From NCBI GenBank assembly GCA_900318775.1, contig ONLY01000001.1, forward strand, positions 62,001-126,000: a stretch of 64,000 nt of DNA, given 5' to 3'. The position numbers were made by a program, and so were the translations under genes. Every line of letters begins with the position of its first letter. Position 1 is the first letter of the stretch. Shown here piece after piece: positions 42,352 to 46,307 of this stretch. The notes under the pieces were generated by a model that saw only the letters and a program-made list of their open reading frames with translations, did no database searches and was not told the DNA's origin. The DNA is from an uncultured Prevotellaceae bacterium. GTDB taxonomy: Bacteria > Bacteroidota > Bacteroidia > Bacteroidales > Bacteroidaceae.

Positions 42352-44295
42352 ATGAATATGAAGAAAACAATCTTAGCAGTGCTTGCGTTGGCAAGCGTAT
42401 GGTCGTCTGCTTGGGCGACAGAGAAGTCTTTTACAAGTCCTGATGGGAAACTGACCGTGGTGGTGGATGATCAGAATGGAATTGCCACCTATCGTGTCAA
42501 TCTAGGCGCCACCGTATTTATTGAGAATTCACCGTTGGGCTTGGAAACGAACATGGGCAATTACACGACGGATTTGACCTTGGCTGGTTGCGAAGTGAAG
42601 ACCGTGAAGGAATCCTATGACTTGCGCAACATCAAACAGAGCCACGTTGATTACGAAGCTACCGAGGCTGTGTGCAGTTTCGAGAAGAAGGGCAAGAAGG
42701 TGATGGATGTCATCTTCCGCGTCAGCAACCGTGATGTGGCTTTCCGCTATCGTATCTTGCCCCAGCGTGATACAAAGGTGTGTGTAGTGAACAGTGAAGC
42801 TAGTGGTTTCAAGCTGCCTGAAGGCACAACCACTTTCTTGTGTCCTCAGTCTCGCCCAATGGGTGGTTTTGCACGCACATCGCCCAGCTACGAGACTAGC
42901 TACACGCTCGATGACCAAATGGGCAAAAACGGATGGGGCGAAGGCTATTCATTCCCTTGCCTTTTCCACTTGGGCGACAAAGGATGGGCGCTCATCAGCG
43001 AGACTGGCGTCGATGGTAGTTATGTGGCCAGCCGACTGCTCAATGTGACAAATGGCCTCTACAAGATAGGCTTCCCTCAGCAGGGTGAGTGCAACGGCTG
43101 GGGCAGCACCTCTGCTTCTGTGGCACTGCCCTGTGAGACTCCTTGGCGCACCATTACCGTGGGCACGACTTTGGCTAACATCGTCGAGACCACCGTTCCT
43201 TTCGACTTGACCGAGCAGAAGTACAAGGCTTCGCAGGAATATATCTACGGCAAGGGCTCTTGGAGCTGGATTATCGGCATGGACCCAAGCTGCAACTACG
43301 ACGAGCAGAAGCGTTACATTGACTTCTCTGCTGCCATGGGTTATCAGACCGTGCTTATTGATGCCCTTTGGGACAAGCAGATTGGCTATGACAAAATCGC
43401 TGAACTGGCTGCTTACGGCAAAACAAAAGGCGTAGGCCTCTTCCTTTGGTATAACTCCAACGGCACATGGAACGACGCTCCTCAGTCACCTCTTGGCAAG
43501 ATGGACAAGAGCCGTGAGCGCCGTGCAGAGATGGCATGGATGAAGAAAGTGGGCATCCGCGGCATCAAGGTGGACTTCTTCGGTGGCGACAAGCAGAACA
43601 TGATGCAACTCTACGAAGACATCCTTTCTGATGCCAACGACTTCGGCATCCTTGTGATTTTCCACGGTTGCACGCTTCCACGCGGATGGGAGAAGATGTA
43701 CCCCAACTATGCTGCCAGCGAGGCTGTGCTCGCTTCGGAGAACCTCCACTTCGGACAGGGCTCTTGCGACGCTGAGGCTATGAACGCTACGCTGCATACC
43801 TTCATCCGCAACACCGTCGGTTCTATGGACTTCGGTGGTTCTACCCTCAACAAGTACTATGACGCCAGCAACAAGCGCGGCACACATCGTGTCACTTCCG
43901 ACGTTTATGCTCTCGCTACTGCTGTGCTCTTCCAGAGCGCTGTTCAGCACTTCGCTCTTGCGCCCAACAACCTCACCGATGCACCTGCATGGGCCATTGA
44001 CTTCATGAAGAACGTGCCCACTACTTGGGATGAGGTGAAGTTCATCGACGGCTATCCTGGCAAGTACGCCATCATCGCCCGTCGTGCTGGCGACCACTGG
44101 TTCATCGTGGGTGTCAATGCCGACAAGCAGCCTTTGAAGACGAAGATCGACCTCAGCCTCTTCGGCAAAGGCACAGAACTCCTTGTCTATAGCGATGATG
44201 CCCAACTCAACGGCAGCGTTGCCACCGTCAAGGGCAAGAAGCAAATAACTGTCACTATTCCAACCAATGGCGGACTGGTGATTGTGAATAAGTAA
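42352..44295 (+). CDS. GH97 glycoside hydrolase (SusB family), probably the retaining alpha-galactosidase type
   Basis: A 647-residue secreted or periplasmic enzyme. ATG 42352 (MNMKKTILAV) or 42358 begins a signal peptide ending near SSAWA. The N-terminal beta-super-sandwich covers ~25-285 and the TIM barrel ~300-560. GIRGIKVDFFGGDKQ (~401-415) places Asp408 where retaining GH97 members have their nucleophile. Inverting SusB-type members use Glu residues elsewhere as general base, so an alpha-galactosidase-like retaining enzyme is more likely than alpha-glucosidase. This is inferred from one motif. The C-terminal beta domain ends GGLVIVNK. Own promoter upstream, terminator downstream. Confidence 0.88.
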   Translation: MNMKKTILAVLALASVWSSAWATEKSFTSPDGKLTVVVDDQNGIATYRVNLGATVFIENSPLGLETNMGNYTTDLTLAGCEVKTVKESYDLRNIKQSHVDYEATEAVCSFEKKGKKVMDVIFRVSNRDVAFRYRILPQRDTKVCVVNSEASGFKLPEGTTTFLCPQSRPMGGFARTSPSYETSYTLDDQMGKNGWGEGYSFPCLFHLGDKGWALISETGVDGSYVASRLLNVTNGLYKIGFPQQGECNGWGSTSASVALPCETPWRTITVGTTLANIVETTVPFDLTEQKYKASQEYIYGKGSWSWIIGMDPSCNYDEQKRYIDFSAAMGYQTVLIDALWDKQIGYDKIAELAAYGKTKGVGLFLWYNSNGTWNDAPQSPLGKMDKSRERRAEMAWMKKVGIRGIKVDFFGGDKQNMMQLYEDILSDANDFGILVIFHGCTLPRGWEKMYPNYAASEAVLASENLHFGQGSCDAEAMNATLHTFIRNTVGSMDFGGSTLNKYYDASNKRGTHRVTSDVYALATAVLFQSAVQHFALAPNNLTDAPAWAIDFMKNVPTTWDEVKFIDGYPGKYAIIARRAGDHWFIVGVNADKQPLKTKIDLSLFGKGTELLVYSDDAQLNGSVATVKGKKQITVTIPTNGGLVIVNK

Positions 44296-44503: not shown

Positions 44504-45355
44504 CTATGGTAATGTTACTTTAAGCACTAATTCCCATTGGTATGAAATCCTCATGGAATAATCGTAGTAGTAGTCATAGTAAATGGTGATGGAGTTGTAC
44601 CCCTTTTGTGCATCGTATCGGAGCCCCTTTCCTCCATTGGACTCGGGGTGGGAGTCATAGATGCCTCCATACACATAGTATTTGCCTGTTTTCGGATAAT
44701 ATTCATAATCAACTTTGGTTGTTTTGCCGTTGACATATTGGGCGTAACTGTCATAGGCAACTCCTGGCCCAATAGCCTTGACGGTAGCTGTAACCTTTCC
44801 TGTAACAATGCTTGGTGTATTTGTATCATCATTTGAACCTCCATGTGATTCGCCATAGTAAGGAGAGCCATCTGCATAAATGGCATCATATCCTACTGGA
44901 GGATTATTTTCAAGTGTTACATAATGGTGTGTCCATGAACTGCCCGTACCCCAATAGTTTCCAAAACTGAGTTCGTAGCTATTTAATTGATATAAATACA
45001 TGACTCCGTTGTCATCGCTCCATTGATCATTGCTATACCTATAAGTGTTCGGTCTTTCAGGATTTGGATAATAGTGATTCTCCACTTTACTCCAAAGTTC
45101 GTATGATTCGTCATTACTATCCCAATCTTTATGATAGAGGTATCTTGTGAATGTATTATCCCTTTTGAAATACCAATAAGTAATCATATCCGAATGAACT
45201 TCCTTCACAGTCTTACCTTCAAGTGGAATATAATTTAAGGTATTGCCGCTGCCATTGTCGTCGTCATCGTCCTTGCTGCACGAGGTGTTCATTGCCAAGC
45301 CCATCAGCATGACGAAGATCATGGGAATGAGTTTGAATACATGTTTTCCTTTCAT
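44504..45355 (-). CDS. Orphan lipoprotein, function unknown
   Basis: A 283-residue protein with a lipoprotein signal (MKGKHVFKLIPMIFVMLMGL, lipobox MNTSC) followed by an Asp run (SKDDDDDNGSGN). The body is rich in Tyr, Asn, Ser and Trp with short alternating strands (MITYWYFKRDNTFTRYLY; VKVDYEYYPKTGKYYVYGG-like), suggesting a beta-rich exported domain. No recognised family. The gene looks more AT-rich than its neighbours, which may mark recent arrival. It is transcribed alone from a near-perfect promoter at 45410-45440. Confidence 0.75.
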   Translation of the reverse strand: MKGKHVFKLIPMIFVMLMGLAMNTSCSKDDDDDNGSGNTLNYIPLEGKTVKEVHSDMITYWYFKRDNTFTRYLYHKDWDSNDESYELWSKVENHYYPNPERPNTYRYSNDQWSDDNGVMYLYQLNSYELSFGNYWGTGSSWTHHYVTLENNPPVGYDAIYADGSPYYGESHGGSNDDTNTPSIVTGKVTATVKAIGPGVAYDSYAQYVNGKTTKVDYEYYPKTGKYYVYGGIYDSHPESNGGKGLRYDAQKGYNSITIYYDYYYDYSMRISYQWELVLKVTLP

Positions 45356-45440: not shown

Positions 45441-45618
45441 TCATCCTTCTTCTGTTAACATTATTTAACACTTCGAGGGTTCGAATATGGTGGATAATGA
45501 GTGTTACAGAGGTGCATTTGCAAAAGAAGGATAGCGCTCTTCTGTAAATGGCTCGTTCCTAAGGACTTGCTTGTGTATTGCAGCGGTTGGCTAAACAGCG
45601 CCTCTTGCACCGCTCAGG
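45441..45618. other. Intergenic stretch between the lipoprotein promoter and the palindrome array
   Basis: No gene. An inverted repeat TGTTAA (45453-45458) and TTAACA (45465-45470) and one TGTTACA heptamer (45502-45508) are present. Nothing else is recognised. Confidence 0.4.
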
Positions 45619-45683
45619 CGGTGTGAGTCACACCGTGGGTGCCGGTCTGAGTCACACCGGCATGGTCGGTCTGAGTCACACCG
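45619..45683. repeat. Three 17-bp palindromes at exact 24-bp spacing
   Basis: CGGTGTGAGTCACACCG at 45619-45635 is a perfect odd palindrome. CGGTCTGAGTCACACCG at 45643-45659 and again at 45667-45683 differ from it at one position. The 7-bp spacers are unrelated to each other. Unit identity against spacer divergence argues for selection on the units. The array ends 88 bp before the rplS promoter, so it is a DNA-level site and not part of the rplS transcript. Confidence 0.9.
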
Positions 45684-45770
45684 ATTTTGTGGTTGCGGGT
45701 GCGACGTTTGAGGAGATGCTCTTGAAGGTGCGCTGAAAAGGGCCTGAAATGCAAAAAAGTGTAAAATCAC

Positions 45771-45929: not shown

Positions 45930-46307
45930 ATGGCAGTAGATTTGATTAAAGTGGCTGAAGAGGCAATGCAGACCTCTGAGCCAAAGCAGTTCCCTGAGTT
46001 CAAGGCAGGTGACACTGTAACAGTAGCTTACAAGATTATCGAGGGTACTAAGGAGCGTATCCAGCTCTACCGCGGTGTAGTCATCAAGATTGCTGGTCAC
46101 CAGGAAAAGAAGCGCTTCACAGTGCGCAAGATGTCTGGTACAGTAGGTGTAGAGCGTATCTTCCCACTCAACTCACCTAACATCGATTCTATCGAGGTGA
46201 ACAAGATTGGTAAGGTTCGTCGCGCTAAGCTCTACTATCTGCGCAAGCTCACTGGTAAGAAGGCTCGTATCAAGGAAAAGCTTTCTGGCAAGAAGAACGA
46301 GGCTTAA
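45930..46307 (+). CDS. rplS: 50S ribosomal protein L19
   Basis: A 125-residue large-subunit protein at the 30S-50S interface. Typical L19 blocks are present: [19 protein letters not shown] (~21-39), [16 protein letters not shown] (~41-56), [21 protein letters not shown] (~63-83) and [21 protein letters not shown] (~96-116). It is a single gene here, not with rpsP, rimM and trmD as in E. coli, with its own promoter and strong terminator. Confidence 0.97.

Follow-up and report, generated by a model that had tools for sequence, protein, structure and literature searches.

A 64,000-nucleotide stretch of the genome of an uncultured Prevotellaceae bacterium (the window; contig ONLY01000001.1, positions 62,001 to 126,000) contains three 17-bp near-palindromes with an exact 24-bp period, located upstream of rplS. 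The question raised by this locus is whether the array is an operator of the neighboring gene or belongs to a larger system, and, if the latter, which protein might recognize it. An initial sequence-only reading described the three units, considered the intervening 7-bp spacers to be unrelated, placed the array 88 bp upstream of the rplS promoter, and proposed a multimeric protein-binding site of unknown identity. The analyses below indicate that the array is one of about 38 near-identical, strongly conserved copies scattered between genes of this rumen bacterium (genome G000), and that such arrays occur, among the species examined, only with one particular HU-like protein whose own gene has such a site beside its promoter.

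Results

Anatomy of the array

The array was found as it had been described (Table 1). The first unit is palindromic apart from its center base, and each of the other two has one mismatched pair. A search of the window allowing up to 3 mismatches gave 6 hits (three places on two strands), against a mean of 0.32 and a maximum of 2 in shuffled sequence. One correction is needed: the spacers are not unrelated but are drawn from a restricted vocabulary of asymmetric words that recur in all copies, namely GCACCCT, CCACCCT, GCATGGT, CATAGGT, and their complements.

Table 1. Coordinates of the array, its surroundings, and other loci mentioned in the text. Handles beginning with G, C, and L denote genomes of the genus, their contigs, and extracted loci, respectively.
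Feature	Location	Strand	Description
Unit 1	window 45619..45635		CGGTGTGAGTCACACCG; symmetric 17-bp palindrome with center G; conserved in the orthologous array of G034
Spacer 1	window 45636..45642		TGGGTGC; reverse-type spacer word
Unit 2	window 45643..45659	+	CGGTCTGAGTCACACCG; asymmetric, left half GGTCTGA, right half of the GGTGTGA type
Spacer 2	window 45660..45666		GCATGGT; GTATGGT in G034
Unit 3	window 45667..45683	+	CGGTCTGAGTCACACCG
Left flank	window 45599..45618		CGCCTCTTGCACCGCTCAGG; weak inverted-repeat consensus of the family, C(-18)TTCCTGCACCTCAAAA
Right flank	window 45684..45703		ATTTTGTGGTTGCGGGTGCG; mirror of the left consensus
rplS	window 45930..46307	+	125 aa; start codon 246 bp from the array
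Lipoprotein-like gene	window 44504-45355	-	between the upstream gene and the array in G000
Upstream gene	window 42352-44295		followed directly by the array in G010
HU-HIG A gene	G000:C18:19047-19445		133-aa protein; array upstream
HU-HIG B gene	G000:C21:911-1297		second HU-HIG protein; different triplet upstream
Four-unit array	G000:C29:141709		only array with four units
Array near dnaA	G000:C24:34824-34880 (L281:9824-9880)		three 15-bp palindromes, exact 21-bp period
Palindrome pair	G000:C1:319-356 (L163)		AAAGTGTACCACTTA / AAAGTGTACCACTTT, 23-bp period
Repeats at the ychF array	G010:C55 (L302)		further ~20-bp repeats, GGCAGTGGAAGTGTCGAAA and its mirror
Segment between arrays	G010:C55:60387-69603		about 9 kb; compared with G000 L022

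Across the 2.62-Mb draft genome of G000, the unit pattern with up to 2 mismatches gave 116 matches per strand, against 9 and 7 for the reversed control pattern, and these are grouped in 38 places, all between predicted genes. Thirty-five are clean triplets with a 24-bp period, one has four units, one has two, and one is a single unit. Half-sites read GGTGTGA or GGTCTGA, and the center is G or C. When elements are oriented to fit best, both spacers tend to read the same way (NCAYNNY), so the elements are polar. The two half-sites facing a spacer are usually one of each kind; a triplet therefore usually has two GGTCTGA halves, and the four-unit array has three.

A consensus over 76 flanks is weak and mirrored, and only a few of its positions are conserved between species, although the inverted-repeat ends are near-perfect in genomes G030, G027, and G012. 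To test whether the ends form a selected hairpin or RNA stem, the two ends of each element were compared; they matched each other no better within than between elements (permutation 1932/2000), and Rfam matches above the gathering score were tRNAs only. These results speak against a structured RNA element. Two other short arrays were encountered in G000: a different tandem palindrome array (TTCATAAGTTTGGAA, TTCATAAGTTACGAA, TTCCAAACTTATGAA) about 3 kb from dnaA, and a pair on contig C1 that is perhaps another array family.

Conservation at orthologous places

In the closest relative, G034, whose flanking DNA is mostly 85-99% identical, all 34 triplets pair with G000 arrays by both position and sequence. 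Across 32 pairs, substitutions were found at 1/1344 arm positions, 3/192 half-type positions, 10/96 center bases, and 37/448 spacer positions, and at 12-20% of flank positions, so the palindromes are under extreme purifying selection that is confined to the arms. Nine of the center changes are G/C exchanges and one is T/G; G/C exchanges seem frequent here compared with the spacers (2 of 37 changes), which may point to inversion of single palindromes. One outcome named beforehand as fatal to the proposal of a binding site, a unit found once per genome and lost in close relatives, was thus not observed.

At larger distance, in G010, about a dozen of 28 arrays lie in the same gap at roughly 70-86% DNA identity, including the one upstream of rplS. 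In G010, this array directly follows the gene that, in G000, is separated from it by a lipoprotein-like gene (Table 1). Arrays upstream of rplS also occur in G027, G030, and G031, with the word GGTGAGASTCTCACC. At ychF-purL, the array is present in G000, G034, G008, G044, G010, G012, and G015, with different words and 23- or 24-bp periods; in G010, further repeats extend on both sides beyond the ychF array. Two G010 arrays flank about 9 kb whose outer flanks match the two sides of a single G000 array (locus L022), as if a segment had been inserted or deleted between arrays.

Genomic context

Association with rplS in particular is not supported, on grounds of copy number and context. Convergent gaps hold 14/38 arrays, against 16/142 of background gaps of at least 150 bp, and the median distance is about 89 bp to gene 3' ends and about 256 bp to starts; the copies prefer convergent gaps, tend to sit near gene 3' ends, and keep away from start codons. 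Neighbors are unrelated housekeeping genes, including luxS, pyrG, purL, ychF, a mutY-like gene, cobS, and FKBP. A conventional regulon, in which the arrays serve as operators by which HU-HIG or another factor controls adjacent genes including rplS, is therefore considered unlikely. In its favor, triplet operators of 17 bp with 23-24 bp spacing resemble phage operator clusters, some arrays lie in divergent gaps, and the HU-HIG gene described below has an array beside its promoter; however, that gene is the exception, with a gap of 29 bp to its ATG, whereas the next-closest array to any start codon is 72 bp away. A phage origin was also examined, and neither the array nor the HU-HIG protein had a match in viral contigs. 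Contig counts first suggested strong clustering, but in this draft assembly a simulation showed only a weak excess of array-free sequence over chance (p 0.016), and the contig chi-square gave p 0.47; no macrodomain is claimed.

A REP/MITE-like mobile or selfish origin was considered next, in which ~100-bp inverted-repeat elements were spread by a transposase and HU-HIG is a repressor or accessory of that mobility. The elements have inverted-repeat ends, are dispersed mainly away from promoters, and have species-specific variants, and several families coexist with a cognate gene flanked by its own repeats, as do REP and RAYT (PMC2817692); such a model would also account for how the sites spread, which is otherwise unexplained. 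However, a profile search for the Y1 transposase (PF01797) returned 0 matches in G000, G034, G007, G012, G035, G043, and G044, so that no RAYT was found in G000 or in most high-copy genomes, and its distribution did not match that of the arrays. A search for insertion boundaries found no target duplications or clean empty sites, only trivial cases and a deletion in G041 that also removes part of a promoter. The ends are hardly conserved and do not covary, whereas the internal palindromes are near-invariant at orthologous places, the reverse of what is expected of transposition ends. This is the main rival explanation, but it appears improbable.

Co-occurrence with an HU-HIG protein

In 399 genomes of the family, only this genus matched a loose two-unit pattern; named matches are rumen and related MAGs. 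Within the genus, 18 of 45 genomes have GGTNTGAGTCANACC and 10 have GGTGAGASTCTCACC, together 21. To identify a partner, genes next to arrays in several species were clustered. One stood out because the array stays on its 5' side although the neighbors differ; it encodes a 133-aa HU-HIG protein (HU-HIG A). The protein matches PF18291 within the HU/IHF superfamily at 46.2 bits (cut-off 26.2, E 5.9e-12), and the profile also finds solved HU structures (best E 8.7e-5); an AlphaFold2 model built from 4 sequences had a mean pLDDT of 42.7, too poor for a fold search; the HU fold is inferred from profile matches. Orthologues (69-100% identity, E <= 5e-59) were found in exactly the 21 array-bearing genomes, and the best hit in any of the 24 array-free genomes had E 6e-12. 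This match was obtained with only two motif words, and a tree of ychF plus rplS shows about three changes of state among 28 genomes, so the 45/45 agreement does not represent 45 independent events.

An array in the species' own word and period lies upstream of the HU-HIG A gene in 20 of 21 genomes, in many between the -7 box (TAnnTTTG) and the ATG, and in G012 and G016 further up. The genes downstream differ, so HU-HIG is the constant member. G002 has only one unit at this position, and G041 has lost the array together with part of the promoter.

G000 has exactly two proteins of this type. The second, HU-HIG B, has upstream three 17-bp palindromes of another word, CGATGTCGACGACATCG, at a 23-bp period, and that word is itself dispersed, with 81 matches per strand against 20 in the control and at least 14 clusters spaced 23 or 46 bp. 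Type-B genes of other species have yet other words (CGATGTCCCCGACATCG, CGTACCCCTCGGGTACG, CGGACTGCTCCAGTCCG, CGCGTTCGACGAACGCG), whereas distant HU-HIG genes in other genera had no triplet upstream. In the genomes with two type-A copies (G043 and G015), a different array lies in front of each copy. Residue 85, in the HU arm region, is N in 15/15 proteins classed as TGASTCA-type and S in 8/8 classed as AGASTCT-type. The match is not perfect, because one of the 15, the G015 copy L337, has mixed AGA-type units in front of it.

Discussion

The sequence-only reading of a multimeric protein-binding site is supported by these data, although binding itself remains inferred, and its unknown identity can now be narrowed to a candidate. 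The explanation favored here, with moderate confidence, is that the triplet is one of about 38 dispersed binding sites of a sequence-specific, HU-family architectural protein, HU-HIG A, encoded in the same genome. Strong selection on the arms only, the fixed spacing of 23-24 bp, the avoidance of promoters, and exact co-occurrence plus co-divergence with a predicted HU-fold protein point to this reading. In this view, a dimer of the predicted HU-fold protein would sit on each 17-bp palindrome, with one arm per half-site and the center base pair on the dyad, and three dimers at 23-24 bp spacing would bend and wrap the ~65-bp array and its A-rich flanks into one compact nucleoprotein bead. Such beads at fixed places between genes would organize the chromosome locally, or over distance by array-array contact, and the protein would limit its own synthesis through the array beside its promoter. 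A second, orthogonal pair of HU-HIG and array (CGATGTCGWCGACATCG, 23-bp period) would work the same way in this genome. Copy number, geometry, selection, position, co-occurrence with the HU-HIG gene, the array upstream of that gene in 20 of 21 species, and the second set of arrays are established from sequence; that HU-HIG is the binder, the stoichiometry of one dimer per unit, autorepression, and the chromosome-structuring role are inferences. HU proteins are usually not palindrome readers, which weighs against the model.

An array upstream of a gene suggests control of that gene, not that its product is the binder, and an unidentified second protein with the same presence pattern could bind the arrays, leaving HU-HIG only as a regulated target. 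This alternative is thought unlikely, because two paralogous HU-HIG types have different arrays in one genome and residue 85 tracks the motif word; a separate binder would need matching paralogues and changes of its own.

Collectively, these results provide a candidate DNA target for HU-HIG proteins and suggest that an HU-fold protein, from a family known for little sequence preference, can be tied to exact palindromic words at fixed places in the chromosome. Several co-diverging protein/site pairs in one genus make a natural specificity experiment (N85 against S85; 24 against 23 bp; TGASTCA, AGASTCT, and CGATGTCG words) and offer an entry to chromosome organization in Bacteroidetes. More tentatively, HU-HIG proteins, a large expanded family in Bacteroidetes, may include site-specific architectural proteins that each read their own long palindromic word, so that a genome could carry several orthogonal sets of protein and dispersed triplet array in which protein and DNA co-diverge; this would be a new class of bacterial chromosome-organizing code, but it remains a possibility rather than the likelier outcome. 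Burroughs et al. 2017 (Cell Cycle) reportedly defined the family and predicted roles in chromosome partition and recognition of invading DNA. In the library searched, the term HU-HIG appeared only in an unrelated study, and no pairing of HU-HIG with a DNA word was found.

Relation to known systems

The closest parallel in organization is MatP-matS of enterobacteria (PMC3330122), in which a dedicated protein has about two dozen dispersed palindromic sites that organize part of the chromosome. However, matS is a single 13-bp site confined to the 800-kb Ter region, whereas the present sites are triplets of 17-bp units with an HU-fold candidate protein and several orthogonal sets, and no Ter confinement was shown. 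BrickBuilt, a minisatellite MITE of P. gingivalis (PMC4596501), is also a dispersed Bacteroidales element, with 23-nt repeats inside inverted-repeat ends, but its repeat and TIR words are different (GAGACCTTTGCA), its repeat number is large and variable, and no cognate HU gene has been described for it. REP/BIME repeats with RAYT (PMC2817692) share with the arrays many intergenic palindromes away from promoters, regular spacing, species-specific words, and a cognate gene beside its own repeats; they differ in that the arrays lack a Y1 transposase, have a fixed 23/24-bp period and nearly always three units, and retain their palindrome bases at orthologous places under strong selection. The HU/IHF (DNABII) nucleoid proteins resemble the candidate in their HU fold by profile (PF18291, PF00216) and in inverted repeats at their own or nearby promoters, as in the autoregulation of E. 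coli hupA through an inverted repeat and the P. gingivalis HU protein PG0121 on a 77-bp inverted repeat (PMC3969353). Classical HU has little sequence specificity, whereas the sites described here present a near-invariant 17-bp palindromic word repeated at dozens of places.
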